Shown here: piece after piece, positions 14,406-60,163 of the stretch
Numbering within the stretch: position 1 is the first letter of the stretch
Layout of the letters: each line of letters begins with the position of its first letter
Program-made: the position numbers and the translations under genes
Assembly (NCBI GenBank): GCA_946699065.1
Contig: CAMPDV010001775.1
Coordinates: forward strand, 36,653-100,652
Origin: Loxodes magnus
Taxonomy: Eukaryota > Ciliophora > Karyorelictea > Loxodida > Loxodidae
Direction of reading: 5' to 3'
DNA length: 64,000 bases
Notes under the pieces: generated by a model
What the model saw: the letters and a program-made list of their open reading frames with translations, nothing else
The model's database searches: none
Told to the model about the DNA's origin: nothing

Positions 14406-14516
14406 AAAATAGAAATGAAAACATTCTAAGATATTCAATTAAATAGCTATGGGTTTATTGATATAAGTGTTTATAAATAAATTAGATTTTCTTTTATGCA
14501 AATAAAGCCTAACTAG

Positions 14517-22588: not shown

Positions 22589-22599
22589 TTATTTATTAT

Positions 22600-22621
22600 T
22601 TACTGAATGAGCGTTCAGTAA
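22600..22621. promoter_or_regulatory. Perfect hairpin in divergent upstream region
   Basis: TTACTGAA and its exact complement TTCAGTAA flank a 6-nt loop, 12 nt upstream of the Myb start codon and in the 285 nt shared with the divergent gene at 22874. It could be a dyad operator, possibly autoregulatory, or an RNA hairpin in the Myb 5' leader. It is not a consensus Myb site. Confidence 0.4.
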
Positions 22622-22873
22622 TTTAAACAAAATTAAATTAAATAAAGTTAGTTTAAATCATTTTTAATTCAATCTGTTTAAATTAAATTCTAACTTTCCC
22701 CTTTTCTTTATTTGCTTCTTATAACTTACTTTTATCAATCCTTCCTTTAAACTTTACTATAGTTCTTCTTTAATTTAGTCTTTTATGCTGAAACTGCTTA
22801 TAATTTGAATAGACAAATTAATAGCTTATTATCTCTACATAGGTTATTCCCTTTTGACTTCTTTTCAGTTTCA

Positions 22874-28500: not shown

Positions 28501-29709
28501 TTTAAAAATGTAATCTAAGCAGATATAAAATATTAATAAATGATTATTTAAATAATTAATTCTTTTTTATTATTAATATTATTTATAATATTTTAGTAGT
28601 AGCTTTCTTGATTCAATAATATAAAAAATTAAATGAAATTTTTTAGTGTAACATTAAATTTATATTTTACTTTTTAGGTTAGTGTTTTATTTATTTTATG
28701 AATTTATTTTGAAAATTTTATTAGCTTAATAAAAAAATAATAAAATAAACAAAAAAAGTATTAAAAATTAAAAGTTAGATAAAAGAATTTCTAGTTTACT
28801 CTGATTAAATTAAGAAATGCAATAATTTATTTAAATAGGATTAAAATCTTGAAGATAAGGCTTTTTTTATTTCCTAATGTAATAATCTTTTAGCAAATAT
28901 ATTAAAAGATAAAAAATATTAACTTATTTCTTATGATTTCTTTTAATTTTTAAGTTATAGAAAACTTAATAAAAATATAAAATAAAGTTATATTTCTATA
29001 TAAACATAATATAACTTTATATCTATACATTTATAGTAAATATAATTAATTATTAAATTTAAATGATAAGCATTTTTCTATTTAGATTTTAATACTTTAA
29101 TTAATTTTTTAAATCTAAATTAAATAGTTTAAAAAGAATTTCGAAAACTAAAGAACTTAAAAATAATATTTACTTTTAATTTAAACTAAATTTAATCTTA
29201 TTATACTACAACTAAATAAATAAGCTGTTTTTTTGATTTATATGATTTTACTTTTATCAAAAAAACAATTTTTAAATATTTATTTTTTTCTTTTAATTAT
29301 AGAATTTTTTTATTTAATCGAGAAATGTAAAATGGTTTGAAAATCTTATCTAAATAAATAAAAATTTAATTTTAAATAATTAATATATTAATAGTTTTAA
29401 ATAATTAAGATATAAGAACACTTTATTATTAATTAAATTCTTAAAATTTAAAACTCTTTTAATACGTATTAAATGTATTTAAATATTAAATTTTTATTAA
29501 TAATCTATAAGCATTTTTTAAATTTACTAAACTTCTTGAAAATTTATAACTTAGAAATAAATTTATCTTTTAGATTTAAAAAATAAAAGGATTATATTTT
29601 ATTTCACTTTAATTCTAATAAAATTTTAAAATCTTATTAATTTTATTCATAAATAAAGAATATTGTAATTTAAATAGATCATTTAAATTAAGAGGGAAAA
29701 AGTTAACTA
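25561..29709. other. AT-rich gene-free stretch
   Basis: About 4 kb of very AT-rich sequence between the membrane-protein gene and the 3' end of receptor copy 3. In-frame TGA codons become frequent after 25900. No motif or RNA gene is recognised. Confidence 0.5.
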
Positions 29710-32700: not shown

Positions 32701-33836
32701 CTATTGTTTAAATTCCTGTAGGAGGATTTTAGCTTGGTCCAGGCCATATTATATCAGCCTTTTTTATTACTTGCTTGGCTTTAATTTCGTAGATTTCTAC
32801 AGGAACTCTATTTTATAGATTGTAAACTGAAAACTGTAAGTTAATGTTTCGATTAGTAAAAATCAAATGCTAGACTTAAGGGAAAAAAGATTTAAAGGTA
32901 CTTTCTTGTTATGATGTAGCTTGATTCTAAAAATGATCTATAAAAGTGAATAGATATTTAGCATAATAAGCTGTTAGTTCAAAATAGTTAGCAGGAATGA
33001 AACTTTTAGGAGTTAATGCTATAATTCCATTATCTAAAATACTTAAATTAATTTTTGATTTATTTTGTACTAAGGAAGTAATATCAGGCTTTATTAAATT
33101 GGAAGATTCTAGTCCTATAACTCAAGCATATTAATCTCCCGCTAATTTATAGAAAGTAGCGAAATTAAGTATATAAGCTTATCAGCACACATCTGCTTAC
33201 ATAAAAACATAAGATGAGCCATAAATCCTAATTGCTTTAGAAACTTCTACCTTAAGTCTCTCTTAAATATAGCTATTATTACACTAAGCTTGATTTAGTC
33301 CATAATAGGAGTCTAAAGGAATATTCACTGAAGTACTTATAAGTTACTTGCTCTTGCTTAAGAAATCAGCAGCTTTGTAGAATCTAGCCTCTTATTAGTT
33401 AATTTAAGTTATTTTTCTGAAATTCAGCTCCAAAAATAAAGATTGTAAAGCTTAACCTTCTTATTAGTAGCTAGGCATTATTCAATAAATATTCTACTTT
33501 GAGAAATAAAAATCACTTCTATAAGCAACGAAAACTAAGTAATCAAGGTAGGAAAGTTTTTATGTGTATAAAAGGTTGAATGTTATATCTAAAATAGCTT
33601 AGATTTTTAAACTTTCCATCTTTTCTTCCAGCTCATCCATTTACAAGTTCTCAAAATCTATAGTCAAAGGAAATGTGATGTAACTGGAATTAAATTTGCT
33701 TTGCTGAATAAACTTGCAAAGGAAATCAGAAAGGTGAGGGATAGTATGGTTGGAACTTATAATGGCTATATTAAATGAGCTTGCCTTTATAAATACACAA
33801 AAAAGCGCTAGCAATAAAATCATTTTTTAACTTAAG
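29710..33836 (-). repeat. Long direct repeat, partner of 10236-14405
   Basis: Near-identical to the copy 2 segment in the same orientation. Homology fades within about 15 nt upstream of the start codon, unlike copies 1 and 2, which share about 120 nt of 5' flank. Confidence 0.85.
29720..33823 (-). CDS. Receptor-like polytopic membrane protein, copy 3 (intact)
   Basis: The best-preserved copy: one frame of 1367 residues from ATG 33823 to TGA 29720-29722, with no lesion seen. Signal peptide as in the other copies with one Leu-to-Phe change (ALFCVFIK), PBP type I-like ectodomain to about residue 790, 7-8 membrane segments, then a tail ending KENEEQQNIN. The tail is shorter than in copy 2, lacking part of the Gln/Glu repeat and differing through in-frame indels, which shows that the tail evolves freely while ectodomain and membrane domain stay fixed. 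Trp is encoded by both TGA and TGG, but only TGG occurs in the tail. Likely a surface receptor; ligand and partner unknown. Family assignment rests on pattern similarity to ANF-receptor/class C receptors. Confidence 0.8.
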
Positions 33837-36800
33837 AAAATAAAGTAGAAATGTTATTATACTTGATTTTTTATTTATAGTTATAAGATTTATTGATATG
33901 AGTGTTTATGATTAAATTAAATTAAATTAAATTTTCTTGCAGTTTAGATCAAAGCTTTATATCCATCATAATAAATAAATTAATAATGTGGTTCCAACAA
34001 AAATTCTACTACATCAATTATAGATTTGATTATCGTTTTTTTTATCTATGATTGTTCCCTTATTAATTTGGTGAAGATATATAAAAAATTTAATTTTAAC
34101 TAATAAAAATTAATAACTTATAAAATTAAATAAATACAATTTTTATTTTAATGCAATGAATCCTTTAATCCAAATAATATTAGATTTTTTTGTTATTTTG
34201 AAATGAAAAAAATTAATAAGTTGAATATTAGAAAATTTTATTTATCAAGTTCTTTTATTAAATTTTTTACTTTAATCTTTTTTTATTATTTGAAAAATGC
34301 AAACAAAAAAGGCTAAAAAAAGATTTATTTTAGTTTAAAGCTTCTTCAAGCTGAAGAATGAAATTTAAATTATTAATTATTAACTTTGATTTAAATATTG
34401 GTATTTTTTTAATTATAATTTTCATGCCAAAATAAAAGAAAAAATTATGAATATTATAATATTACAATAATGCTTTAATTAAATTTAGATATTAAATCTT
34501 AGCACTGAAAGTTTTATATAATTAATTGCTATAAATATAAGCCTTGCGCAAATTATAACAAAAATTTAAGCACTTTACTGAAATAGTTGAGATATACTTC
34601 GAAGTATTTTATCAAATTATTAAGAATTCTAAATTAATTTTTATTTTCCATAGAAAGGAGAAACTCTTACATTAAAAATAATACATTTCAAAAAATGAGT
34701 TAAAAATTGAAAAGTTGCTAAATTTAAATATTTTATTGTTCTTTCATGCTCATAATTTCAAAATTTTTTTATTATGAGCTTTGAATTGAAAAATATTTTA
34801 TATTTTTATCTTTATTTAATCAGATTTAGGTAAAATATAAACATTTTTTATATAAAATTGTATATATTCTCTTAATCTTTGAAAAGTTATTTTGAAATAA
34901 ATGAATAATTTATTTTACATCATATCAGAATTTTTTATATTTTTGTTTTTGAAATAAATTCTTAAATATTTTTTTAATTAAATATTTTTACATTAAATTT
35001 GAATTTTATTAATTATAAAAAATAAAAAATCAAGTAAAAATATATAAAAAACCCATAAAAATGGAATAGATAAAAATCTAATTTAAGAATATTTTAGGAT
35101 GTAATATGAAAATTCTTCAAAGTATAAATAGCATAAATAAAATAAAAATAATAATTAAAAAATTGTTTTGGTTTGATATTTTAAATTTAATCTAGAAATT
35201 CTCTTAAATATTCAAGTATTTAAAATTAATAATCTTTAAATTTAAATAATAAAAATAAACTGCAATAATTTAAGATGAAATAATATATTAAAAACCTAAA
35301 ATTAAAAAAAACAAATAATCTTTTAGAATAAACTTTTAAAAATTATTCTTTCTAACTATTATCTTTAATCATTTGACTTATATTAGCTTTAATTTATTTC
35401 GAAAAATTATTTAAAAGTTCGTGAAAGTTTAATTAAAAAATAGAAAAATTTAAATACGAAATATACTCAAAATTTCTCTTTATTAATAACAGATATTTAG
35501 AAAATTTAAAATTTTTAATTTATTAAATTAAATAAATAAACATTCTATAACTTTTTGAAATTTTAAAATGAATTTAAAACGAAAATTTAGATATAGTTTT
35601 TAATATAAAAAAGTTAAAATAAATAATTAATGATCTAGTAATTTTGTTAATATTATGAAATTATAAAAATCTTATTTAATAAAAATAAAAACATTTTGCA
35701 TTCTAATTTAAAAAGAAAATAAATTAAAATTTTTAAAAAACTTATTCTAATTTATTAAATAAAGGCTATCTTTATAATTTCATCTATTTCTTTAAAATAT
35801 GCTATTTTAACTTAAGGTTTACTTATATATTAAAAACATTCTTCCAAATAATTAACTTTTATTAGATAAATTAAAGTTTATTTGATTATTTACTCTAAGA
35901 TTTAAATATTTCTTAACCTGCTTAAACATTATTTTACAATTTTTTAAATCTTATGATTTTCCCTAGATTCAATTGCTTCCATTTTCAAAATCTATTTAGT
36001 TATTTCTTATAAGATTAATTTTTCATTTTAAAAGTCTTATTATCTCATTAAGATTTAATAAAGCAAAAGTATATTTAAAAATAAATGCTAGATTTAAGTT
36101 TTAATAAAAAACCTAGGTAAATTAATTGGCCTTTTATATCTCTTTTTATGTAGTTATGAAATTTTACAAAATATAAGGAGGCTAAAGAGGAATGATTTAT
36201 TGAAAAAAATACGTAAAAAGGATGAAATTTATTTTTAAACTTAAACTTTAAAAATCGTTTAAGGCGAGAATACTCCAGCAAAAAAAAGGAGTATGAATAA
36301 CTAATAAATTATTAGAGTCAAAGAATGTTTGAAAGCTCTCTAACTCTCCTTTTTTTCATTTAATTCAATAACAATAGTAATAATGAGGCACTTATGCATC
36401 TTACTTGTTATGAGAGAAACTAATAAAATATTTCAGTAACTTAACTCTTAATTATCTACTTATTAGAAGCTTATCTAATCTTACTAGAAATATATCTAAG
36501 ATTTTGATAATGTAATAAAGATATTAATTATTAAGTTAAAGGCTTTACTAACTATAATTTATTAAAATTATAAAATAAATTTATTATTAAATTACAATCA
36601 TTTTGCTTAGTTAAGATTATTTGATATTGATGCAAAATGAAGGAATAATCTTCAAATTAATAACTATAGTTGAAATTAAAGTTTATGAAACAATTTTTAT
36701 ATTCAATGATTCTTCAACATCTTTCATAATAAAAAAGTAAAGTCTTAAAATTTCTACTAGTTAAGATATTAGAAAAATACTTAAGAGTTATGATCCTTTT

Positions 36801-38614
36801 GTTATATATATCATAGCATTCTTTCTTTTTTCAAGCGAGCAATCTAAAGATATAAGGAGCTCAATGAAAGAAAGACAAATATTTAATAAGCAACAGTTTT
36901 GTTTAAGAAAGAAGTTAATTTTATAAAGATGAAAAAAGAAATAAGTTCAAACTTAAATATCCAAATAATTTCTTAGTTTAGCTTAAATTTCACAATTGCA
37001 AGGTAATATTTAAAATTTAATCCTATAATTCTCTTATCAGCTTTCTTAGATTTAATGTTTGATATCATGGAAAGAGATATTATATTTGTGAGTTAGTTGA
37101 AAATACAAAATTAAATTTAAAAAAGATGAAAATTCATAAATCTATAAGAATAATTATTTGTAAAGATCTAAATTAGACAATAGTCGAATTCCAAGGAAGA
37201 AATTAAATTGATAATAGCAAAAGAAAAATGTGCTTACTGTTAAAAATCAATCGAATGAGAGTTAGATTTAAGTTGAGAAAAAATTGGATTTAAATCTGTT
37301 TCATTAGAAAATATATTTGAAGACTTTTCATTTTGTTTCTCCTAGAGATCAATTTCTAACTATTTTTGTAAAAATTAATTCTAAAAGTTTAGCAAAGGTA
37401 TTTATAAATTTTTCTTTGCTTTGTCTAAAAAATAAAACATTATGAAGAGAAAAAACAAAGTTTAAATCCCAACATGATTCTCGAAAACTATTTGTATATT
37501 AAACTATCTTAAATAACTATTAAAAAGACATATAATTACAATCAAGGAATCCTTTAAAAATTTTGATTCAATCTTAATCAAACATAATTTGTTTATCTAG
37601 TGTTTCATCGAGTAATTGTCTAATCTAATATTAATAAAATCTAAAAGTTTTATTATTTTTAAGGAATAAAGTTTGATTCTAGATTCTTAAGAATCATTTA
37701 ATTTAAAAAGTAAAATAGACTTCTAAGAAATCTTAGCTAATTAATTTTTATTTATTCTCTTATTATTTAATTTTAACTTCTATGTAAAATTTAAATTAGA
37801 AGCTCCTTATTTTAAAACTTAATTTAAACAAATATAAAAGAAGGCTATTGTTAATATATTTCCCTCTTAATTAATTAATTATTCTAAAACTTTAACTATA
37901 AATTTTACAATTTACCTAATTTCAGCCACTACTAGACTTATTTTTCTAATTATCTTTAACTATATTTATAAAATATTAAATAGTACTAGCAAAAGTTATA
38001 TAATAATGTATAAGTCTATTTTTGTATTGGATGATTTATTAAATAGATATTAATTAAGATAGTCCTTTCTAAAGGAACTGATATAAGATAATTAAGCAAT
38101 GAAAAGCTGTTAATTATACAATTAAATTATCTGACTAAAGTTAAATTCTCATTTAATTTTAATTGTTTGAATATTAAATTATTATTACTAGGCTGATAAA
38201 GCAATAGCAATGCATTAATAGATAAAAAGATAAATATTAGATTTATTTTATTAACTCTAGTTGAACAATATTATTTCATGAAGCTTCATATTAATAAATA
38301 TATCATTTAGAGCCTTTAAAGTAATTAGATCTTTAAGATAATAGAAACATTCTTGATAACTATAGAGCTTATAGTTCTTATGTCGTTAGCTATTTAATCT
38401 TTCTCATATATTGATTAATAAATATAGCTTTAAGAATAAATTTTAAAATATTTATCCTGTCACTAGCATAAAATATAAAGCTTAGAGGAAACAAGCAGTA
38501 GTTGAGTATTAAAATTAAAGATAATAATAGTAAGGAAATAAAGATTAAAGAGTGTAAAATTTAAATTAAATAAGAACTAATTTAAATTCTAAATTAAGCT
38601 ATTATATAATAATT
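33837..38614. other. AT-rich stretch with uncertain coding potential
   Basis: No supported gene. From 36864 an ATG-started frame runs toward the kinase gene, but it carries TGA about as often as chance, has no recognisable domain and needs unproven introns, so I leave it uncalled. A weak hairpin (ATACTCC...GGAGTAT) lies at 36270-36294. Confidence 0.45.
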
Positions 38615-41600
38615 ATGAACTATAACTCTTCTAACTAGAAGTCTATTGTTAATGAGAGTAATTATGTCTAAAGAGAAAGCTTAACTAAGGAATAAATATG
38701 GCAAAAATTAAAACGCGAGGATTATCACTTTTTTTCATTATACAAATTAAAAAATAGCTATTGTAAAGATTAAAGATTCTACTATGAGTTCATTAATGAT
38801 AAGGAGATAAATATACACTATACAATATAAAAATTGCAAGTACAAGAAAAGTTGAGAGTGAAAGTTATCTAGTTACTGCTGTGCGGATATAGCTTTCTCC
38901 AAATATTGCAAGCTATCTTTGTTTAAAAATGTAAGAAAAATAAAGCAGTTAGAATATTAATGCAATAAGAAAAGAAATAGAAAAGCTAACTAATAAATAG
39001 CTAAGAAGCATTTTAGTTTATTTATAATAGAAATTTTGAGGATTTATAAAAACTAATTAGCTAGGCAGAAAAAGAATATTAGTTAAGCAGTCATGAAATA
39101 GTACTTTTTTAGGAGAAATAAAATATACTATATATAATTCCTCTAGAGCACTTATTCGGTATTGCAGATATTTAACTTGAGTGAAAAATTGAGCACAATT
39201 TGCTATCTCTTGTAATCAGTACCGATTAAGAAAATGCTTTTGACACTTGAAATTTTGCTTAAAAAATATAAATTTAATAAAATTATCAGTCTTTAGGAAT
39301 AGTCCTATTTCAAATAACCGATAATCCTCCATCTAAATTGACTAACTTTATAAAGTTTCCTAATAAGTAAATACTAGAATATTGTGAGTAGCTTCTTCAG
39401 AATTTAGAAAATAAAGAGAAGTTGATTAAACAGTTAGATGAAATGGATATTCTTTAACTCATTTATGAACATTTTTTGGGGGATTAATTAAAGAATAGTT
39501 AATATGGAATTCTATAGGGATTTATTGAGGATATCTAAAGTTAGCTAGATAAAGAGGAGTTAAAATGCTTAATAAAAGAAAATAGAATATATGATTTTAA
39601 GAAAGAAGTTTAATAAGCTTTAAATCAAAATTAAAAACAAGCTCATATTATTATTTTTATCGATAATCAAAAACGCATTCTATACTGAATGCATTTTGAT
39701 TGCTTGACACTGGAAATTTTCAAATAAAGTGTTTTGTTAAGCAAGATTTCATCAGAGAGATTGTAATATGTTTTTGAGGAAAGCAGCTAAGAGTGGAGAA
39801 TGTAATTATTTAGTTTAATTTAAATTTGAGACGTCAAAATTTAGAAAGCGCTTTAAATGATAATATAAAAGCTTATTTCAATATCCATTTGAAATAGAAA
39901 ACTAAGTTGAATCTTTGGAAACTATAAAATAAATTTCCTGATTATGAATTTATTAAAACCATCGCAGAATCTAATGGCAATGACTAGCAAATGAAAATAG
40001 TTCTAGTTCAAAATAGTAAAAAGGAGAATAGAATCTTGAAATTATTATGGTAAAAAAATAAAACAAGATAAATAGAAGGAGTGATAATAAAATTGTGAAG
40101 TAGACCATTATAATTTAAGAAGTATTGCTGCGAAATTTATGATTATAATAAGAATTAATAAGATGAAATCTTCTGAATAGAAATGGAATATTGCGAAAAA
40201 GGAACTTTATGGGATTTAATAGAAGAGAGAGGCGGCTAATATTTTGACTTAGAAACTTTTTATTAGTTAGCTCAGTTTTTAATAGAAGCTTTTGCCTTTC
40301 TGTAGGATTTGAGCATATACCATTCTGATATTAAACCTGCTAATATTTTTGTAACCTCTTAAGGACACCTAAAAATAGCAGATTTTGGCTATTCTGATCC
40401 ATAAATGAAAATATTAGGTCCAAGTTTTTAAGCCTGAACTGATGGATATTAGTCTCCATAAATGGTTAATCATCAATAAAGAGACTTCTATAAATCTGAT
40501 GCTTTTTCATTAGGAATGACTTTACTTGAATTAGCAACATTGAAAAGCTAAAGAAAACTTTAACTGAATGAGAAATAAAAGAACAATTAAGATTTATTTA
40601 AAAAAATAGGAAGACAAATATAGTATTACTAAATAGAAAGTCAAGAAGGATTTTAAAATGTGCAAATACTTCTTTTTTTGTTACTTCACTGAGATGAAAA
40701 AAAAAGAAAGGATTTTAAATAATTAATTTAAATGAATATTAGAAATATAGAAATCAATTTATAAGATTATACTACTGATAGGATTTTATATGTAGATTCA
40801 GGTTAAAATCTATATTAGGATACAAATTAAAGTTAAATAGTAGATAATGGCGACAATCAAAGCTCATTTACATTATTCTAAAGTTAATGCGGATAAACAC
40901 AAAATACCACTACTTTTTAGAATAATCAAGTTTAAGAAGAAATTTAGACATCATCTTTAAATCAAGAGGCTAATAATTAAAAAATTGAAAGAGCAAATAC
41001 AATAGAAGAAATTCCTTATATGGATTTTGAAAGATTAAATCCTAAATAGCAAAGTTATTTTTATCTCATCTCTTAATTCTAAAAAAAATTAGCAGTTATT
41101 TAAGATAACAAACTAAAAGTGAATGAAATTTATTAAGATAATACAAGTTATGTGGGGTAATTTGATTAAAATAATAATTTAGAAGGGATTGGGAGAATTA
41201 TAACTGAAAGCTATTATTATGAAGGAATATTCAGAAATAACTTTAAAGATGGTGAGGGTATTTTGATAAATTTGAAAGAAAAGTCAGTTCAGGAAGTTAT
41301 CTATGAAAAAAATCTAATAAAAAAAGCCAATTTATATATTTTGAAAACATAAATTAAGAGATTAATATTCCATATTTGTAAGTAAACGATGAGCAATTTA
41401 ACGAAATTCTTAAGTTAATATAAAAGTAAATGAAGACAGATGTTAATTCTAAGGGAAGTTAACATTTTTTGCGGGGCCAGAAAAACATAGAATATATTGG
41501 ATAAGTAAGTGAGTAATGAAAACCTCTTGGAAATGGAAGAAATTTTATAAGTTAACTAGGATATTATGAAGGATATTTTGAAAAAGGATGAATGCCTAAT

Positions 41601-41873
41601 GAGTAAAATTTTATAAGTATCTAGAACTTAAAATAGCTTTCCAATTCTAAAAAATTAAAATAGTAGCTTAACGAGTAAAAATTAAAAGACTTATAATTTA
41701 GAGAAATTAGGTAATACATTATTGATTTGATAGAAAGAGAAAACAGCTAGATTTAAATTAAATCTATTTCTGAAACTTCAAAGAATAGTGAAAATTAGAG
41801 AGAAAAAAGCAAATTTAATCAGCTTAAAATGAAGAAGAGAGAATTTTCTTATGATCTGCTAAACAACTAATGA
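38615..41873 (+). CDS. Protein kinase with C-terminal MORN repeats
   Basis: ATG 38615 (MNYNSSNQKS) opens a protein of about 1064 residues ending at TGA 41871-41873. A ~450-residue N-terminal region of unknown fold precedes a kinase domain. The C-lobe is clear: MEYCEKGTLWDLI hinge, catalytic loop YHSDIKPANIF (about residues 562-572; HRD has become HSD but the catalytic Asp, Lys and Asn remain), KIADFG (Asp about 583), and an activation segment end AWTDGYQSPQMV where the usual P-E is P-Q. The N-lobe is unusual: no glycine loop is evident and the VAIK lysine is uncertain (RILKLL). Downstream are MORN-type motifs (YVGQF...GIGR, YYYEGIFRNNFKDGEG, YIGQV, GYYEGYFEKG), which in other proteins bind membranes or scaffolds, then a coiled coil. 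A 20-nt intron at 39736 fixes the first frame change; the second, near 41283-41326, is unresolved. Confidence 0.82.
39736..39755 (+). other. Candidate 20-nt intron
   Basis: GTTAAGCAAGATTTCATCAG, phase 2. Removal joins ...LEIFKQSVL to EIVICFWGKQLRVENV, leading in frame into the kinase domain. Confidence 0.55.
41283..41326 (+). other. Candidate 44-nt intron or homopolymer indel
   Basis: After the MORN block GEGILINLKE the frame must change to reach ENINQEINIPYLQVNDEQF. A GT-AG removal of 44 nt does this, but so would one missing A in the seven-A run at 41319-41325. The length is unlike the other introns here. Confidence 0.25.
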
Positions 41874-44800
41874 TTTTGGGATTAAAGCATAAAATATATT
41901 TATAATTTCCTTATAAAATAACTAATTAAAATTAATAAAGTATAAATACTACTAAGTATTCACAAATAAAGGATGATATTTAGAGCATTTATTTTATAAA
42001 ATAATTTTTATTTATATTTATTACTAGCTAAATCATATCCTAAGTTTTTATACAAACACTAAATTTTCATAATGATTTGTGTGAAACAGTCAACATAATT
42101 TAGAAAGATAAAAAATTTTAAGATATTATTAATTCTAGTTTATTTAAAGAATAAATATAAAAGTTTAAGAATCCTGAAGGTAAATGCTTAAAAACGAAAG
42201 TCAGATGAATAAAAACAAATTTCATCAAACAGAAAATCTAAAGAGATTATTAATAAAACATTTTTTTAATTGCAAATGTTTTTTAATGTTCGATATATCT
42301 TAAATTTGATTATAAGTTAAGTGGAAAACAAAAATAAAATTAATTAATTAACGAAAAAATTGATTTTAGAAGGAAATTTCTCCTTTCATTTATAAGAGAA
42401 TGAAGAAAAATATAAAAAATAAATTTAAAAATGAAAATAATAATTTTTATAGTAAAAAACTAAATTCTTATAAATAGAAATTTTTCAGTTAAAAAGTAAA
42501 AAATAATGAATTTTGGATTGTATATAAAATAAAAATATAAATATTATTTAACTTATGAAAATGAAGAAATATAAATTCTAGTTTTATAATATATAAAATA
42601 ATATAAAATTAATAATTTAATTTAAATAGAAATAAAAAACATTTTAATATATAAAATTATAAATATAAAGATAAAAGTTCAAATTTGCATTTATTTAGCA
42701 AAAAGTAATTTAAATTATAAAATATTAATTAATAAAATTCTTAGTTGAAGAAAATGCTTAATAAAATACAACATTTTATTTTTACTTTTATTTATCCAAT
42801 CTAGTACTTTTCACTACAAAGAATTTAATTTATTTTTAATTATTAGATATTGAAACTATTTATTTATTTAATTTTGCTTTAAATTAAAATTTTAATTTTA
42901 TTTCCCTACTAAATCTTAAACTTTACTACAGCTAAGTAAATTAATATGAAAATTAATTGTTTAAATTATTGTATTCTCTTGCCCAAGCATCTCATTCTAT
43001 AATATATACAAATGATTATATATTCATTTTTTATTTTTTTTATTTAGAAGCCAAAAAAATTAATAAAAGTTTCTAAACTGAATTTAATTTAATAAATTAC
43101 TAAATAAATCTAAGAAATTATAAAATGTATTATTACTAAATTTTATAAATTTTAAATGGTTTTTATTTTAATGTTAAAGTTAATGTGAAAAAGAATACTT
43201 CTTAATTTTTTTGATATATGTTTATTTTAACTTAAAAAGCTATTTAATTTATTGCATAAAAGATTAAGTATTTATAAGATTATTATAAATCTTTAACTAA
43301 AATTTTATATTTTTATTATTATTGTAGCTTTTTTTAATTTTCGTTACAATTAGTTTAAAGATTTTTTCTCTTATAAAATATAATAAATTAAAATAAATTA
43401 ATTTTCTTATATCTATATCACTTTAAAATGTAATAAATATATAAAATAAACTTTATTTAGGCTTTTGATTTTAAATCTTTGAAAAAATCATAAAATCTCA
43501 CAATTAAATCTTATAAACTTATTTTACTATTTATTCTATTCTGTTTTATTTAGGCTAATTTATTTGTTTAAAACTATTTTATATCTCTAATATACTTTTA
43601 ATAAATTCTTAAATATTAAATCTAATTTTTAGACATTAAATTAAAAAAAGCAAAACTTAATAAAATATAAATAGGTTAAATAATTTTAATATATTAGCTT
43701 TATTATGTTAAGAATATAACTTTAAATATATTTAACATTATTTTATATAGAAAATTAATTTTAATTATACTTATTTATTATGCTTTTACTTTTAATCAAA
43801 GAGAATAAAAAATAGAAAAATTATGAAAAACAAAAAATACATATAAAGAATAAAAATTAAAACATTTAAGATAATATTTTGAAATTATCTAAGTAAAAAA
43901 ATCCTAAATTAGTCAAAATTTTAATATAAAGAATTATTTAGAAATAATTAATAAAAATATATTACTTTAAAAAAAGATATAGTATACTAAGCTGTTATAT
44001 ATTTTTTTAAAAATTCAATTGATAATAAAAAATCTAAAATTTTTTATTTTAGTTCATAGATAATTAAATGTTAAGATATTATAATCTTATATAAATTTTA
44101 TTTTTAATTATATGATAAATTATTTTTATTTAAAATTTTATAAATTATATCAAACAGTTACTATATTAAATATTGTGATTTCACTCTTCATTAAATTTTA
44201 GCATTTTTTAAAAAGGTAGTTTTTATAAAATAAAATCGAATTAAAAATTTTAAATAATTAAAAATATGTTTTAAAATGATTACCTTCTTGTATATAATTT
44301 ATAAAAGCACTTTTAATGAAATAAAAGTTTTAAATATTAAAAAATGATTTTCCTGTTTAAATTATATTTACTAATTATTTTAATCATGCAAGAAAAAAAA
44401 ATTTATTTAATTTATATTCTTAAAATATAATATATTTTTAATAAAATAATCAATTTTTTATTATTTAGTTTTTACTCTTTTCATTAAGTAAAAAACATAA
44501 TAGTTAAAAAAATTTCTAAGATTTAATCTTATAGATAAGACAAATTTATTAATTTTTGCTTTAATTTACAATTAAAAAATTAAATATTTATATCTTAAAT
44601 TATACTAAAAATCTTAAATTTTTATTTCAAATAATTGTAAAAATTTAATTAGCAAATATTTAAGTTATTTATAAATTATTTTTATCTAATAATTTTAGAC
44701 TATAAGTTTCAATATATTTATAATTTATTCTAAATATACTATATTCCATTTGCTATGTAATTTTATTAAATAAAATTTTTCATTAAATTATGATAAATTT

Positions 44801-47499
44801 ATATTATCATTCAATCAAATTGTTTTAATAATAAAATATTTGTTAAGTTATTTATAATTTAAAAAATAAAAGAAAAGTATTAACTTAATTTAAAAAGAAA
44901 TGTAAATATATTAACAAAAATAATTAAATTATTAATTAAATATTATAATTAATATTAAATAGTAGAATAACTATCTGTTATATAAATTAATAGAAATTAT
45001 ATTATTTTTATTATATTTTACTAAAAGTATTTATTATATTTTAAATTATTTATTTACAATTTAAAATTTATTAAACCTTAATCATGTAAATTAATAAGAA
45101 ATATTAATTTTTATATTTTATTGCATTCTATTAATTATCTATATTTAATTTTAAGTAATTACTTTTATTTATTTAAAATATGCAAAATTAACTTTAAACA
45201 TTTTAGTAAAGTTAATATTTTGAAGGGCCCTTGGAAATTATTTTTGATGAAAAATTGATGAATTTATTTTTAATAGTAATTAGTTTTAAGTATAAAATTA
45301 CATTTAAAAATATCTTAAACAAAAATTTAAAAGTTATATAAAAAGTATTATTTAAAAGGTTTTTATTAAAATATTTTTTATTATTTTAAAAAATTAAATC
45401 AAGTTATACTTTTTTTGTTATTACTAATTTTTATAAAATTTTGCAAATAAAGGTATTTTATTTTAGTTAATAAAAAATATTTAATTTGAATAAATATATT
45501 AAAAAATGAAAACTTTTATTGCTTTTTATGAGTTTTAAAATTTTAAATAAATAAAATCTTAATTAAATATTATAAAAACTATAAGTCTATATAAGTAGAA
45601 TTTAAGTTTATATTCTTACATCTATTAAAATATAACAAACTATTTATTAAGTTAGAAAGAGAGACATTATAACTATTTAGTATTTAATTCTTTATTTAAT
45701 TATTTTCATCTCAAATTAATTCTCTTTAAGTTAAGCTGAAAATTGTAAAGCTAAAAAGAAATATTTACCTTTAAATTTAACAAATCTATCAAGCCTATCT
45801 TTTTTAAAGCATCCAAATTAGTAGTTTAATAAGAATTACCAGATTTTTATTATCTTAGTTTTAACAAAAGCTTATTTACGATTTAAACATTTAAAATTTG
45901 ATTTTTCCTTTCCTTTCCTTTTATTTAAATTTTAATTCTTAATCTTTAAAAAAATTAATTAAACATCTAAATCTAAGATCAAACAATTTTACTTATAAAT
46001 AACTTTTTTAGCTTCAAATTTAAATTTCTATTAATATTTGAAGAGAAACTTTCAGTCCAATCTATTTACATTTCCGAGAAAAGTTCTTCAAAATTCAGTT
46101 AACATTTTTAAAAAATTAACTTAGAAATAAATTTTATCTTTAAGCCTTATAAAAGAATAACTTAACTTTCTTTTAATTTGATTCTATTTAAATATTTCTA
46201 TCAAAAATGATATAATTAAGAAAAATAATTATGTAGCTATTAAAAATATTTAAAAGCATATTTAGAAATAATTTATTCCTTCTTCTCACTTGTTAAAAGA
46301 TTTTACTAGAAATAAATATAAACTTTATTATCATTCAAATAATATATTAAAAACAAATATAAGTAAAGATGATATTCCAAAATTTATAATTTAATTCTAA
46401 AAAATAATTAAAAGATAAAACTTAAGATTAAAGTTTAGTAGAGATTTAGTAATATTTAAATACATTTAGTTTAAGTTAGATCTTAGAACCTTTTAAAACT
46501 ATTTTTTAATTATTTATTCCAATTAAATATGTTTGAACCAAATAATTATCAAAATTTAAAATTAATTTCCTCTTTCTCCAAATTTGTTTATTTTTCAGCC
46601 TAAAAATTATTGACTGTCTTTTTATAAAGAAAGATATATATAAATAAAAGCAACTAGTTTATACAAATTATAAGAACTAATAGATCTCCTTTAAAAAGGA
46701 GAATAGATTATAAAATTAAGCTACTAATAACTAAAACATTAATTTTCTCTTTATTTTCCAAAGAAATTTAAATTATAATAGGAATATTTCATATTTAAAT
46801 AATTTAATTAACTATGAAATAATAATTTTTTAATTTTAAGAAGCTAATAACTTTATACAGTTAATAAATATAAAATTATTAATAATAGAGTAACTATTCA
46901 GATTTTTCTTTAATTAAACTTAATAAAAGTTTTTAAAATTTTAATATATGCAAATCTTTATAGTTATATTTAATTATCAATAGGGATACTAAAAAATAAA
47001 AAATAATAGCTATAATGAAATTGAAAAGAGAAAATGGAGATGTAAGTTTCTTTTTAATAATAAATTTAATCAACTTGAAATATTTTACAAGAAAAAAAAT
47101 TAGTGTTGAAATAAAAGAATAATCTAAACTTATAAGCAATTTAAATCGATAAAATTATATAATATACTCAATAATACTTTAGAACATTTTATTATTATTA
47201 TTTATGCTAAGGATATTCTTTATATCTTTTGATTGCTATTTTCCTTAAAAAGATAAATAAATTATATAGAAAGTGTATTTATTCTAGTTTAATAATAAAT
47301 TATAAAAAAGAATATTCATTTTATAAATATTAATGCTAGATTATGAACTAATTAAGAAGAAATTTTTATAAATAGCTTTTAATTAAAGTAATAAACTAGA
47401 AATTTCAGCTTAAAGCTTTACTACTTTAACTAAAATTAAGAAGCCAGGAATTAATAAAACAGATTAAATAAATCCTAGAATTTATTAAAATGCTCATAA
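41874..47499. other. Long AT-rich gene-free stretch
   Basis: About 5.6 kb of the most AT-rich DNA in the window. No gene, RNA or repeat family is recognised; the isolated GGGCCC at about 45225 stands out only by composition. Confidence 0.55.
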
Positions 47500-50458
47500 T
47501 CACTCACTGGATACTTTTACCAAAGTATTATAAACTTCAGCACCGAATTCCTTTATTTTTTGTTATATCTCCGGTAGAAAATTCTCGTTTTCAATAAATC
47601 TCAACATTTTAGCACCTGTAACAAGCTGGTGTGAAATACCATCATAATTTCTCTATAAATGAATTAGCTTACACTATATTTTTTCAAATAATTTCATTTT
47701 TTAATGTCGTTTCTTATCATCTAAAATTCATTTTAATCTCTTCCTGTTGTTAAAAAGAGAAAGATAATTTAGATCTAAATTATACTACCGAAAATTAGTA
47801 AGTTATCCACATTTGCTTCTGTTGTTAATTCAATTTTACACTTTTGAGAATTAGCGCAAAACTTGGCAATAAATGTTTTAGTCAAAATAAAGAAAATAAT
47901 CAACATTATTGACTAAAGTCTATTTTAAAAATTTACCTTCTTTCAGCATTAGAGCTGTTATTGAAGTTTTAGATCCTAATTTTCTCATACTAAGTTAAAT
48001 TTTCAAAATCTTTGCTGTCCTTTATGTTTATAAAACTTTTGGCTAGTCAGTTGTGCAAAGAAACTGGCAACTAATAAAGGTTATTCTTCAGATTTGATAT
48101 TCATTACTAAAATATTTAATTAAAATATTCCAACTGAAGAGAAAAATTTTGTGATTTAGTATTATCGTCACTTTTGCTTTCTTTACCAATTAAATCCTAA
48201 AAATTTACTTTTTCTTCATAAATTAAATTTTAAAATGTCTGCTTGGAAAGAATTCTCAACCATTTGACTAATATTTTTTGGTTTTATTTTCAGTCTTCTT
48301 TTTACTGAAACATCTCACTTTATTAGTTAATTTGCTCTTCTTGAATTTATTAGAGAAGTTATTAATCTTCAATTCCAAAATTAGATTATTATTTAAAGAT
48401 TAATTCAGAATTACCTTTTTAAGTTTAGAAGTCTTAATTCTCTTCTAATTTCTAACTTTCAGCTTCTTAAATATAAGGATTATTTGCTAAATCATAAAAG
48501 TAACTGCTGGTCATTCTAAACTGCTAAAGGTTAAAATTATTCTAGTTGAATCGCCATTAATGAATCTTTGAGTGTTTTTATGGAGAGTAGGTACTTTAAG
48601 ATTGTAAGATTTTTTAATTTTCTATTTAGTTTTCTTAATGAAGCTTATTTTTTTATTTATTCAAGTTATTAGTTTTTGTCTTTTTTTCCTATTATTGAAA
48701 TCTAATTTTTTTTTACTTTTATTTTTTAATCTCAACCTTTTCTTCCTAAATATCAGTGAGTTTTTCTTTATTATATTTCATATTGTAGAAATCGCACAAT
48801 TCTTTAAAATTTTAAGGAATTTTTGATTAGATAGAGTTTAAATCTTTAGATTCATATTGTTAATTATTTTCTTCTAAGCTGGAAATTTCTATTTATAAAT
48901 TTGTTTTTTAATTATTTTTACTAAAGCTTTGTTCTTTGCCTAGTGAAAGAAGAAATTGATCAATTGACTATTATTAATTTTAATCTTTTTCTTAATTATT
49001 TTTTTCTTAACTTTAGATTTATTTCTTTTCATTTCTCTCTTCTTCAATTAATAGCTTTTCATTTTCTTTAGTTTAAAAGTCTTAGTTATGTTAATTAACT
49101 CCTGTACGATAAGTAAATTTTCTGGGATTTTTTCTTATAATTTATGTTGAACTTTAAGAATTTTTATTTATTGTCCTTATTGGCGATATTGATTTATGTT
49201 TTTCAGATTATTATTAAGTAAGCGGAAGTTAGAAAGTTTGGTTCTTTTGAATAACTTATGGGCTTAATTAAAACTTGTAATGGGGATTAAGATTTTATTC
49301 AATATTAGTCTATTAAAGCTTGTTTTGAGAAACGATATTACAACTTCCTTTTTTACTGGCAATTTGATTAGGATTGAGGTTTTTATATGATTTCATAGAA
49401 TTATTTATCGATCTTATTTGTTGTTCAAACTCGGATTCGGAATTATCTAAATCTTCATTTTGAGCAGTTTATTATTGAATCTCACTATTTAAAGTTTTCT
49501 CTGGACTTTCAGTTATTTCAATATAGAAGGAAACAGGTTATGTTAAAATTTTTTAAGTCTGCAAATTTATTTCCTTTTTTTAAGAGCGAAAATCGCTCAA
49601 CTTTTTCAAATCCTTCTAATTTATTATTTTTTGGGATTTTGCACGCTTTCTTTCGAAAGATTCCTCTACTTCACACCAATTTTTATTAATATCTCGAAGT
49701 TTAACCTTTTTAGGTATGTGTGCAGTATTGGATATTCTTTATAAGGACTATGCAACTTAGGCACTTAAAGGAGATTTAGATTCTTGATTTTCATAAATTA
49801 TATCTAATTCACTATTAGGGGAAATTAATGGGATTTGCAAGCAGAAAATGTTTTATTGCAAATTTTATTAATTATTTTTTATGTTTTAATTTTGAGTTAA
49901 TAACTTTGGTGCTGAAAGGGTATGTATGCTCTTTAGCTTATTTGAGATGTTTGGTAAAGTATTATTTATAAATTAGCTTTAGGGTGTAATTTTTTCAGAA
50001 CTAGAGTTGATTTTAAGTTTAGACTTATTTTTTATATTAGACGGAATGTTTCCTGCTGAGACATTAAGCTAATGTGAGTCAAAATCTTTCCAGACTCCTT
50101 GAATTAAATTTTAATTATTTGAAGGAAATTTTTAAGTTTAGGTGCTAGAATTTTATTTTAATTAGTTGTTAAATGGGCTACTTAAGCTGCTATCGTAACT
50201 TTGATTTAAATTATTTTTATTTTGAAGCTTATTCCTCTACTGAAAATGATCCTTTAGAGATTTAGTGGAAGCTTAATTAATGCTTTTGATGACTAAAGTA
50301 GAGCTAATATTTTGCAATAATTCATTTTAGTCATCTGGCAGCTTATGAAGTCTCATTTATTATCCCGTAGTGTTTCTTTTTCGTATAGCTCTCTACTACT
50401 GAAGCATATTCTATAATTCCTTTGCATCAATTTTCAATTTCATGTCGCTCTATTTCAT
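47500..50458 (-). CDS. RasGAP-like protein A with long Gln-rich N-terminus
   Basis: From ATG 50458 one frame runs about 590 codons without any TGA, then through two short introns to TGA 47500-47502: 973 residues. Residues 1-620 are disordered, rich in Q/N/K/S. The C-terminal ~300 residues are conserved with gene B and resemble a RasGAP domain: KWLRILSKQTF, the LP-x-x-L segment, KTFIAKFCANSQKCKI (compare F-L-R-x-I-C-P-A-I), NVDNLLIFGSIIQ (compare L-x-L-I-A-K-x-L-Q), and GRDQNEFQMIRNDIKKW (compare F-x-x-K-E-x-Y-M-x-x-x-N-x-F-I). Such domains speed GTP hydrolysis by Ras. I cannot see the arginine finger, so catalysis is doubtful. Paralog comparison supports the frame through third-position changes. 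The RasGAP assignment is tentative; existence of the gene is not. Confidence 0.8.
47653..47672 (-). other. 20-nt intron
   Basis: GTAAGCTAATTCATTTATAG, phase 0, between KYS and RNYDGISHQLV. The paralog at 57230-60163 has a 20-nt GT-AG intron at the same codon, and flanking frames are fixed by synonymous differences between the two genes. Confidence 0.8.
47920..47936 (-). other. 17-nt intron
   Basis: GTAAATTTTTAAAATAG, phase 2, after NAER. Gene B has a 17-nt GT-AG segment at the matching place. Removal keeps gene A in one frame from ATG to TGA. Confidence 0.65.
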
Positions 50459-52532
50459 CTTAATAATTTTATTAATTATATTTAAACCAAGTATTAAATA
50501 TTTTACATTCATCTATATTATGATGTAATTTTTAGTTATTTAAGCTAACTAAAGTGTAGCTATCAAAGAAATTTATTACTCAATTATTTATTTTTCCTCA
50601 TGCTTCTTTATTATTTCTACCCAACTATTTCTTAATTCCATGGACAATATTTTTATCTATCTATTCCTCTATAAAGTATTCTAATGTATAAAGAATAGTA
50701 ACTAAAAGACATAGTTAAAGTAGTTTATCCCATATACTAGGCTAGCAAAGACTAATAACTAAATATAAATCTAAATTAATTTAATATTTTAGTACTAGAT
50801 TCAATTATTTAAGTCTACTTTAATAGTTCTATATCTATATTAAAACTTTTCATCTCTAGTTTAATATACAAATTTTAATAATTAAAGCAAAAGAAATCAA
50901 ATTGATGAATATAAAGAAATTATCAAATTACTAAATTACTAAATTGATAACGAAAGACACCAAGAATGTCTCTTAAGTTACACATTAAGTTAGTAATGAT
51001 TAGAAGAAAAATAAAGTAGTTGTCTATTAAAAATTTAAATTAGCTATATAGCCTAAAATAGTATAAAATTACATATATCTTTGCTGTTCATTTAGATGTG
51101 TTCCCTGAAAGATGGTATTCAATCAATTTTTTTAACTAAAATATTTAAAGCTTTTAATATAAAGCACACATTAATGCCTTATTAGCCTATGAGCTTTAGC
51201 ATAATAATTATACTAAAGTGTTTGTGATTTATATAGGTTATTCTTCTAAGCAAATACTAAAAAATAGAGTTTATAATACTAAATTATATCTATTTTTATT
51301 TTACTAGAAATACTTAAAGGTATTATTATTAAGGAACAATATCTACTATATACTCTTTTGTAGATACATTAACTGAAAATACAATTACTATTCTAATTAT
51401 TTTTATATAGATAATTAGCTAATTTTTATAGAAATTTGAACTAAGTTATTAAATCTTTTTTAATTAGTTATCTAGTGTTTTTATAAAAGACTTAGTATTT
51501 AATCAAATCTAAGGATATTAATAATATTACTAAAATATATTTCTTTATATTTAGTATTTGTTGAATAAATGGGATTAATAGTTATTTTCAGTAGATAATT
51601 GAAGAAACTAATTTAGAATATTAAAATTTAAGATTCTTCAAGTTTGGATAATTTACATTTGAAGTTATTTTTGCTAATTTTCCAAGCAAAGTATATCAAA
51701 ACTAATCTTTATGTCTCCCAGTTAATGAGAGTTTAAAGATAAAAAAATAGTAAAAATCCTAAATTTTAGCATAAACATGCTATCTTCATTAAGGTTTTTT
51801 AATATAAATAAAAGATAGAGCATCATAGTAAAATGATAAAGCATTGAATAAATTAGATTATACTATAGATATTAATAATAGCAGTTCTTTTTAACTAAAT
51901 TACTTTATTATATAACTAAATGCTTATATTTACCAGATTATTATTAAAACTTGCTCTTATTATAATCTTTCTTCATATTATCATTAATTAATGCTTATTA
52001 ATTTTTACTATAAAAGCTAAGATTTAATAATAGAATATAATTATACATTTTATAATTAAAATTGTTAGCCCACTTAATAATATCTAGATGGATAGTATAA
52101 ATAAAAAACTATTCAACTAAAAAGAATTAGTGATGATAATAAAACTTATTACATTAAATATCAATACCATCTCTTTAGAAGCTTAACTATTTTCTTTTAA
52201 AATTAAAAATTAAAAAGGAAGGATTTTTATTATTGACTACTAAAGACTGAGAAATTGGTTTATTATTAATTTTTATAAAATTATCTGAACATTTTTAGTG
52301 ACTTATAATTAGTTTAATCTTATTAGTTGATTAAGTTTCATTTGAGCATAAAAGAAAGAAATCGATGTTGAGCTACTTAATCAATTTTTAATTCTTAGAA
52401 TAAAATTAATTTTTAGTTGCCTTCAAATTTCTTGTAATGGATATGAAGTTAAATTATTTTTATTTTTATTAGATTATTTTTGAAGTTTTCCTATTTTATT
52501 TCTAGTGTCAAATACTATTTTTTAATTTTTTA

Positions 52533-55572: not shown

Positions 55573-55644
55573 TTGCCTCACCGAGAATCGAACTCGGATT
55601 GCTGGATTTAAAGTCCAAAGTGCTAACCGTTACACCATGAGGCA
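55573..55644 (-). tRNA. tRNA-Gln(UUA), reads UAA as glutamine
   Basis: A complete 72-nt cloverleaf on the minus strand: acceptor TGCCTCA/TGAGGCA with 7 perfect pairs, D arm GTGT/GCAC, anticodon stem TTGGA/TCCAG with loop CTTTAAA (anticodon TTA), T arm CCGAG-TTCGATT-CTCGG, discriminator A. In the standard code TTA would read a stop. Ciliate tRNA-Gln(UmUA) of Tetrahymena has the same anticodon loop, so I infer charging with glutamine; this agrees with the many in-frame TAA codons. No intron. CCA is not encoded. By wobble the tRNA might also read UAG, though a separate CUA tRNA is usual. Charging cannot be proven from sequence. Confidence 0.93.
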
Positions 55645-57229: not shown

Positions 57230-60163
57230 TCATTTCTACTCAGTTTTTTTTAGCGCTGAATAAATAAAAGTTCCGAAATCATAGAGTCTTTGTTTCACTT
57301 CCATACTTAATTGTTCACATTCTATTATTTTTTACATGCGAAGGCCTGTAATAAGGTTATGTGAAACTCCATCATTGCTAATCTGCATTATAAATAGCTT
57401 ACATTCTGTTAATCTAAATGATTTCATTTTATTATATCGTTTTTTAAAAGTTCATGTTCTCCTTTATCTCTTCCAATAGTTAAGAAGCGAAGAAGAATTT
57501 GAACTTATAAGATACTACCGAAAACAAGCAAGTTATCCAAATTAGCTCTTGATGAGTGCTTAATCTTGCATTTTTCAGGATATAAGCAAATATACCTAAC
57601 AAAATTTTTGCTTAAAATATAGAATAAAATGAGCATAATTAACTAATGCCTGAATAAATTACTTACCTCTTCTCAGTTATAGAGTTAGAACCGAAATTGC
57701 TAATTCTATTTTATTCAAATTAACTGAGATTTTCTTATTTTTAGTTTCCTCTATATTTATGAAACTTGATACTAGTCATTGCTTAAAGTTATTAGGTAGC
57801 TACTCGAAATTATAGCGTAAATCAAGCAGTCATTCATTAATTATATCTAGAAAGTATTTGAGTTGCTGTTGAAATTTTAGAAATTGATGTGAAACTTAAT
57901 TTTAATTTTCTTGATATAATAATTAAGAAAAATCAATTTACTATTCATAAAAAAGCTTTTAAACCATACTCTTTGAGTACTTTCTCAGTCACTTAAGTAG
58001 TGTTTTCTGATTTAAAAATTAAATTTCTTGTCTGCTTAAATCCTTAAATGGGATGTTCATACCATTATTCCTTTAAACATTTTAATTAACTTATTTGTGA
58101 TTTATTTTTCTAGATTATTAGCTCAATTTTTCATTTTATATCTCTTCAACATTTTCATTTTCATCTTCATCTGAATCTTATTATAAAAAGGATTAAAGCA
58201 AAGCACTTTGATCTTCGCTAAAAAGAGTTTTTTAGTTATTTTATTCCTAAGTTTAATGCAGATTTTATAGGTCTCCAGAATCTTACTTTTCTTTATCATT
58301 AGGTATTATTTCATTTTTTTATTACTAATTATTTTGGTGCCCTTTTCCTTAATTTCCTTGCTTATTTATACTTTAAGTAATTTACTATCGATTTTACTTT
58401 TGAGAAACTTCATAGAGTTTATTGTAATATTAGCAGAGCTCCTTGAATTCTTTAGGAATTTATTAAGAAATTTTATTCTATAATTTTACCATTAACTACT
58501 GTTTTAGTATTGAGGATTATATTGTCTATTTGGATTCTTAGATATTCTACTAAATTTGATTTTAGTTGATAATTTGCTTATTATTTTGCATTACTTCATT
58601 TTACTTTTTAAGATCAGTGTTTCTTTCAACTTTTGCTTATTTTTTTTCTTCTATTATAGCTTCTTCTTATATCTTATTCTTCGTTAAATCTTCCTGCTTT
58701 TGCTAAGGAATCAGATCTTTTTATTGAATATTTTTTAGTGGACTATTACTTTAATTATGGTCATTCTTAACTTATTAAGATACATCTGCTTTATTTTGGG
58801 ATTTCGATCTATATCTTTTATAAGATATTTATTTCACTTATAATTAATTTTTTTCTTTTATCTGGTAAGTTTCTTATTTAATACTAATATTATACTCTTA
58901 AATTTTGTGTTCATCATAGTGGTAATTAACTACCTTCTATTATTAAAAAGGGATTTTAAGATTTAAATTATTTTCTTAAGCAGGCTATTAGTTACCAGAT
59001 TTATTTTAGACTACTTAGATTTAGTTCTTTATAATATTCTTTTTTGCTTCTGCTTAAAATTCTTTTATTTTATAAGCTTAGTCAATTGCTCTAGCTTTAG
59101 TTATTGCCTCTTAGTTATGTGAGTTAGTAAGTTAAATTCTCAAGTCACTGGATTTTTAGTTTATCTTTTCTGGTTTATTTTGAGATTTTGAAGCTTTTAA
59201 AAGGTCATTGCTACTTTGATAAGAAGTATTTACTTGCTCAAAATTTGAAGTCTTTGATCTTATTTTTACTAATTTATTCAATATGCTTTGCCTCTTTTAT
59301 ATAGGACTAGAGTTTAAGGAAATAGGAGTTTAATTATTAGGATTTTGACTTTTTGAAAAGTTATTTAATCCTTTTGGGTCATTAAAATCCTCCTTCTTCT
59401 TTTAAAGCATTTAGCTTTCTTAATCATTCCTTGTCTTGTAGTCTTTGACTCCATTTTAAGTTTAATACTTCCCAAGCTGCTGCCTTACAAGTATCTAATT
59501 TTTTTCCATGCCAGATGATTTAGTAACTGCTAAATTTTTAGAAAATGGACTATTTTACGAGTGCATTACACTTTCAATATTTTTAGGAGAGTTATGATTG
59601 TATTAAATGATATGCTTAGGAGATACAATATATTGACTATTTTATTAAATACCGTTGATATTGGGCAACTAAATTTCTTTGATTTATTTCTATTGTCGTA
59701 GCTATTTGTTTGGATTCGCTTATACACTTAATTTTATTTTCCACTTAGATTTCTATAATAAGAAGTCCGCCGAAGTATTTAGATATTAATGACCAAAATC
59801 TTATTGAATTAAAAACTTTTGAGTTTACTTAGTTTAAGTATTTTATGAACCAAATTAATAAACTTCAAAATTGTTTTGAATTACTTTCCTGCAAGCATCA
59901 TAACTTTAATTCAAGTCTTCCATTTGTTTTGTTTTAAGCTTTTCATTCAAAATTTCTTTTTAAGACTTTGCATTTACTTAATTAGATTTCTTTGGTATAG
60001 CTGAGGTTTATATACTCTAAAGCAGTTCATTCTAACTTTCTGGAAGTTTATAAAGCTTAAGCTTCTAAGTCTGTTTTCCTTTCTTTTTTAAATTTTCCCG
60101 TTTCTATAGCAAATCCTATAAGTCTTTTTGTTACATAGTTTAGACCATATAATTTTCTTTCAT
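57230..60163 (-). CDS. RasGAP-like protein B, paralog of gene A
   Basis: From ATG 60163 a long TGA-free frame encodes a Q/K/N/S-rich disordered N-terminus of about 650 residues that starts much like gene A (KLYKLPESQNELLQ versus RLHKLPDDQNELLQ). The conserved C-terminal domain follows: LLKWLRKYSKSM, EQLPNNFKQWLVSSFINI, FVRYICLYPEKCKIK, ANLDNLLVFGSILQ, GRDKGEHELLKNDIIKW, then SNDGVSHNLITGLRM, ending at TGA 57230-57232. The FVRYIC...P block is closer to the RasGAP F-L-R-x-I-C-P motif than in gene A. The same 17- and 20-nt introns are present. Just before the 17-nt intron the frame is 1 nt short relative to gene A, so there is a real or assembly frameshift at about 57670-57720. Presumed role: regulator of a Ras-like GTPase; arginine finger not seen. 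Confidence 0.75.
57383..57402 (-). other. 20-nt intron
   Basis: GTAAGCTATTTATAATGCAG, phase 0, at the same codon as the 20-nt intron of gene A, before ISNDGVSHNLI. Confidence 0.8.
57650..57666 (-). other. 17-nt intron
   Basis: GTAAGTAATTTATTCAG, same length and place as in gene A, with a good GTAAGT donor. The upstream frame is off by one base in this copy. Confidence 0.6.

Follow-up and report, generated by a model that had tools for sequence, protein, structure and literature searches.

Introns of Loxodes magnus have already been measured by RNA-seq, and a passage of Seah et al. 2024 (PMC11441545) gives them a mean length of 19.3 bp and a mode of 17 bp, with 93% at 25 bp or less and a negligible share below 16 bp. 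For the heterotrichs Stentor and Blepharisma, passages of two papers put about 95% of introns at 15 bp and the rest at 16 bp (PMC11441545, PMC9942806), and ultra-short introns of about 25 bp are mentioned for Paramecium and Nyctotherus in an extract of a third (PMC5014332). As far as the excerpts go, UGA serves as tryptophan or stop in Loxodes, under the karyorelict code (PMC11441545), and as tryptophan in Blepharisma (PMC9942806).

The window analysed here, a 64,000-nt stretch of the L. magnus genome, contains two paralogous genes, A and B, each with a 20-nt segment that we predict to be its second intron (intron 2). Across the family, the 39 distinct sequences found at the intron 2 site are 16-24 nt long with a mean of 19.6 nt, like the published introns of L. 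magnus with their mean of 19.3. The lengths in all 57 intron-bearing members (16-24 nt) and those at an upstream site (16-19 nt) fall within the tiny-intron class of this species in a search that permitted 12-40 nt. The reading of UGA as tryptophan or stop is the same in the A/B family as in L. magnus, and no feature that we tested differs. Heterotrichs, the sister class, have very short introns in common with the A/B family, but their lengths of 15-16 nt do not describe the intron 2 series, in which four of the 57 introns are 16 nt long and none is 15 nt. The introns of Paramecium and Nyctotherus are also very short, though on the figure in that extract longer on average than those of the A/B family. 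The combination of UAR as glutamine with UGA as tryptophan found in the A/B family fits neither Blepharisma nor Stentor. In Blepharisma the codons other than UGA depart from this combination; Stentor uses the standard code, and in Paramecium UGA is a plain stop.

An earlier note on the window had placed the 20-nt segments among the shortest spliceosomal introns and near those of heterotrichs. They are indeed very short, but they are not record-short, being longer than the Loxodes mode of 17, and heterotrichs are the sister group of the lineage to which this genome belongs. Given the mode of 17 and mean of 19.3 bp in the relevant passage of PMC11441545, a 20-nt intron is ordinary in L. magnus. 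The tiny introns of Loxodes are already published and a single 20-nt intron adds nothing new; what remains of interest is the repeated resizing of one intron site within one genome. In literature searches not aimed at the gene family itself, the passages retrieved did not describe the set of introns found in this family. The first reading did show that a true tiny intron can be recognised from sequence alone.

Gene structures, genetic code and surroundings

The predicted structures of the two genes, and a tRNA lying between them, are as follows.

47500..47652, minus strand: gene A, exon 3, with the presumed end of the gene at the TGA at 47500-47502
47653..47672, minus strand: gene A, predicted intron 2, 20 nt, phase 0, GTAAGCTAATTCATTTATAG (row L013 of the family set is the gene A copy)
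47673..47919, minus strand: gene A, exon 2, with an in-frame TGA as tryptophan (the KKW site)
47920..47936, minus strand: gene A, predicted intron 1, 17 nt, phase 2, GTAAATTTTTAAAATAG
47937..50641, minus strand: gene A, exon 1, rich in Gln and Asn and containing in-frame TGA (tryptophan); start codon at 50639-50641 guessed from the open frame
55573..55644, minus strand: tRNA with a UUA anticodon, which would read UAA, consistent with UAR as glutamine
57230..57382, minus strand: gene B, exon 3, with the presumed end of the gene at the TGA at 57230-57232
57383..57402, minus strand: gene B, predicted intron 2, 20 nt, phase 0, GTAAGCTATTTATAATGCAG (row L047 is the gene B copy)
57403..57649, minus strand: gene B, exon 2, with in-frame TGA (tryptophan)
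57650..57666, minus strand: gene B, predicted intron 1, 17 nt, phase 2, GTAAGTAATTTATTCAG
57667..60163, minus strand: gene B, exon 1, with TGA codons opposite tryptophan codons of gene A; start codon guessed

Exon 1 of gene A may contain additional introns farther upstream. Intron 1 is 16 nt long in two near-copies of gene A (L002 and L008), and at this upstream site 53 of 74 distinct family members have a GTA...YAG segment of 16-19 nt. Near 57735 the frame of gene B is interrupted because the copy in the window differs by one nucleotide in length from the B-type copies L038, L041 and L051, through either a mutation or an assembly error.

Under the bacterial table, no closed reading frame in the window reaches 150 codons; with UAA and UAG as glutamine there are long open frames, on which the putative assignment of UAR to glutamine is based. 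The tRNA listed above, the one tRNA found, is presumed to be of glutamine identity. At the KWLR motif a TGG in gene A stands opposite a TGA in gene B, and further TGA codons pair with each other. Across the 71 family members compared below, the tryptophan column upstream of intron 2 holds TGA in 20, TGG in seven and other codons in 44 (21 of them GGA), and a second column holds 13 TGA and one TGG; the totals for the stretch are 49 TGA and 11 TGG. Two further columns contain TGA (three and four cells), the other members having mostly phenylalanine, or asparagine and tyrosine; since no TGG occurs there, these columns support a sense codon and not tryptophan as such. In both genes an in-frame TGA begins 24 nt upstream of the intron 2 donor, so the A/B frames are valid only if UGA is a sense codon, a condition absent from the earlier note. 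The presumed terminal TGA lies at the same place in A and B, and the last 20 codons contain neither TAA nor TGA. The codon usage of the family thus appears to be that of the karyorelict code (NCBI table 27), with UAA and UAG as glutamine and UGA as tryptophan internally and as the only stop.

A Pfam search with A and B in three frames each returned no family up to E 0.01. No solved structure matched exon 2 of gene A up to E 5, and a 101-residue piece of gene A exon 1 gave two weak matches only, the best at E 0.11. Relatives of exon 2 were also sought in viral contigs (321 pattern matches) and genome contigs (591), and none was confirmed. On contigs C387, C1668 and C1775, several A-type genes recur at a spacing of about 14.6 kb, and B-type genes are separated from A-type genes by about 9.7 kb, so that the A/B pair seems to be part of a larger amplified unit.

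Elsewhere in the window, a unit of about 4 kb is present in three copies that are 85-96% identical, at 358-3993 (plus strand), 10894-14536 (minus) and 30325-33980 (minus), with one gene per copy weakly matching ANF_receptor (E 8e-05, 4.8e-06 and 5.8e-06). The copies have not diverged evenly: some 0.9 kb of the ANF_receptor-like gene (637-1536) is almost identical among them while adjoining parts differ, a pattern that gene conversion could have produced. A protein kinase gene at 38600-41900 on the plus strand (PF00069, E 2e-25) has in-frame TGA codons within the kinase domain, which on visual inspection is followed by MORN-like repeats; a change of frame near 39800 suggests a further intron, perhaps at 39802-39830. 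A gene on the minus strand at 21682-22650 encodes two Myb DNA-binding repeats (PF00249, E 4e-31), its top solved-structure matches being c-Myb and relatives. Low-GC blocks of about 12-16% lie at 16000-20000, 26000-30000, 34000-36000 and 42000-46000, and two of these blocks have collinear stretches of weak similarity to each other (27394-27813 to 43932-44330, and 28895-29194 to 45492-45788).

The A and B paralogs compared

Both 20-nt segments begin GTAAGCTA, the 3' end being TAG in gene A and CAG in gene B, and they are identical at 13 of 20 bases. That a 20-nt GT-AG segment lies at the same codon in the two paralogs, as the earlier note had stated, is borne out by the coordinates, the borders and the phase 0 boundary, all of which agree. 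The exact 20-mer of gene A intron 2 occurs 20 times genome-wide, the window copy counted, and a reversed-pattern control gave no occurrence. When A and B are aligned, exon 2 has a single best frame (BLOSUM sum 236 vs 161 and 107), as does exon 3 (111 vs 40 and 30), and the two best frames are offset by the 20 nt. The earlier note took the frames to be fixed by synonymous third-base differences; the frames themselves stand, but this basis for them holds only in part. A and B differ at codon positions 1, 2 and 3 in 32, 16 and 33 cases in exon 2 and in 26, 16 and 29 cases in exon 3, and because positions 1 and 3 are about equally divergent, the frame signal comes mainly from the conserved second position. 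The claim that the frames are incompatible without removal is right in that the exon frames differ by 20 nt, but the A/B pair alone does not distinguish removal from a frameshift.

We aligned the 3' regions of the two genes jointly; each gene could take GT-AG introns of 13-40 nt anywhere, with no demand for GTA or YAG. This spliced alignment selected 20/20 nt for intron 2 and 17/17 nt for intron 1, whether UGA was scored as tryptophan (score 560) or penalised heavily as a stop (385.5). A further pair of 27/17 nt from the tryptophan run (48010-48036 and 57749-57765) was rejected, since the B-type copies L038, L041 and L051 read through it and the B copy in the window carries the one-base length difference; a 36/32-nt pair, confined to the run that scored UGA as a stop, was not accepted.

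In an equal-deletion test on A and B, a 2-nt skip near the donor scored 374 and the 20-nt intron 347, and four of 14 decoy borders also exceeded 347 (TA-AT 359, AT-TA 354, TT-AA 354 and GA-TG 353), some of the decoys having many more possible joins. As the 2-nt frameshift outscores the intron, the A/B pair alone is no proof of an intron. In column shuffling, a plain shared GT...AG (15-25 nt, 2 mod 3) appeared in 6.6% of shuffles at the intron 2 site and 6.3% at the 17-nt site; for a shared GTA...YAG the figures were 0.6% and 0.7%, a rarity that favours introns but falls short of proof. The gain in coding potential was 42.5 for GT-AG borders against 30.6-47.0 for ten decoys, GT-AG not being preferred. 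A gene finder based on codon usage, to which explicit introns were later added, had too little power in DNA so rich in AT and was used only for locating likely coding stretches.

The intron 2 site across the family

The assembly containing the window (705,730,643 bases in 7,843 contigs) was searched with exon 2 of gene A, which gave at least 150 matches at E <= 0.001 (every one of the 150 candidates scored, out of 326 at first look). The 98 loci examined comprise eight found by the exact 20-mer, 30 from the exon 2 search and 60 picked from its other 120 matches so as to thin out near-copies. Within a 140-nt stretch spanning the end of exon 2, 74 of the 98 loci are distinct; L001, L033 and L057 were removed because their borders were called elsewhere, leaving 71 members. 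When only GT-AG borders and 10-60 nt were required, A and B again received the 20-nt intron, but several loci received other borders (L032, L034, L036, L037, L044 and L053 among them). All counts use a stricter rule: a GTA start, a YAG end, a length of 12-40 nt and a margin in score over no intron of more than 2.

At the intron 2 junction this rule finds a GTA...YAG segment in 57 of the 71 members. The segments are 16-24 nt long: four of 16 nt, one of 17, eight of 18, 12 of 19, 21 of 20, one of 21, two of 22, five of 23 and three of 24. In 54 of the 57 members the donor coincides with the position expected from the exon 2 alignment, and in L065, L073 and L075 it is offset in that alignment by 6 or 12 nt with the junction motif unchanged. 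The other 14 members lack the segment and continue in one frame through the junction with the flanking coding sequence kept, as in L070 (...NYQNSIS.NNFDGVSNQL...). All three length classes modulo 3 are present with the flanking exons in frame; 12 of the 57 introns are 18, 21 or 24 nt long, and their small margin over no intron (5 to 24) is expected, since such lengths cause no frame shift. Among the 39 distinct intron sequences there are 35 GTAAG, three GTAAT and one GTAAC donors and 26 TAG and 13 CAG acceptors, a tally in which only letters 4-5 and the choice of T or C were free, GTA and YAG being required by the rule.

This variation in length, together with the presence and absence of the segment among the 71 members, upholds the GT-AG intron reading with which the earlier note began. 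We are almost certain that the 20-nt segments of A and B are ordinary tiny spliceosomal introns of the karyorelict L. magnus. The spliceosome would remove GTAA...YAG segments of 16-24 nt at the intron 2 position in most members examined, and the introns would lie in the 3' portion of the genes of a large, amplified family read with UAR as glutamine and UGA as tryptophan or stop. The sequences themselves show the position and borders of the segments, their range of lengths, the paralogs without an intron and the use of UGA as a sense codon; we infer that splicing takes place in the cell at these predicted introns.

Because the A/B pair alone was unable to exclude them, overlapping genes and frameshifting were both considered seriously. 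If the genes overlapped and no intron existed, the TGA at the KKW site would be a stop, and an ATGA overlap would open a gene of 65-66 codons in the shifted frame. AAATGA is indeed found in both A and B and provides a shifted-frame ATG, open as far as the final TGA, but that first TGA is replaced in 51 of the 71 members (seven TGG, 21 GGA and others) with homologous protein downstream, 14 members have a single frame through the junction, and the segment ranges from 16 to 24 nt. Gene A also has a TAA 13 codons before the KKW-site TGA, and a passage of PMC11441545 reports that in L. magnus UAA is depleted over the roughly 20 codons preceding a true stop. A programmed ribosomal frameshift at the intron 2 site in place of splicing would account for the best score obtained with A and B alone, that of the 2-nt skip near the donor, and for both introns of A and of B being 2 mod 3. 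However, the members with 18, 21 or 24 nt would need no shift, the others would need differing shifts, and in 14 members the segment is absent. The varied length classes with intact exons and the clean absence in those 14 members exclude both readings in our judgement, and we regard overlapping genes as extremely improbable and a frameshift as scarcely credible.

The segments could also be IESs, short segments removed from DNA and not from RNA. Short intragenic DNA segments are removable in ciliates, as stated for Paramecium in a passage of PMC9942806, and the length and presence of IESs could likewise vary among paralogs. Against this stand the GTA...YAG borders in A, B and 55 other members, although these follow partly from the construction of the rule, and the intron-less members, which independently place the join at the same spot. 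Moreover, the assembly searched amounts to 705.7 Mb, against 706 Mbp for the published somatic (MAC) assembly of L. magnus, and mapping against the MAC reference did not detect classical IESs in the L. magnus MIC, both according to portions of PMC11441545. We consider an IES origin highly implausible, and tiny spliceosomal introns remain the preferred reading.

Length changes at one splice position

The tree of the 71 members uses 117 retained columns, and 17 of its 68 inner branches are open. On this tree, length 20 requires at least seven changes, four of them forced by well-supported branches, and all length and absence labels together require 26. The sister row of gene A (L028) has an intron 2 of 18 nt, and the neighbours of gene B have 18 nt (L039) and 19 nt (L054). 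The supposed conservation of the 20-nt length between A and B is contradicted by these relatives and by the repeated changes on the tree; A and B have the position in common, and given the many length changes their equal length of 20 nt is probably a coincidence.

Absence of the intron requires three changes on the tree, two of them forced, and one branch of the family is mostly without it. The three intron-bearing rows inside that branch (L078, L096 and L097) are all on long branches, and their unsure placement makes the count of losses or gains uncertain. On balance, we lean towards the view that one splice position has been resized repeatedly, only within 16-24 nt, and lost or gained perhaps two to three times. 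With 57 introns at one position, together with intron-less paralogs, in one genome and between similar exons, the family provides a set for asking what the minimum spliceable length is. If the view above is true, the lower size limit of the tiny-intron spliceosome, and the length pressure it exerts, would be readable from one locus family.
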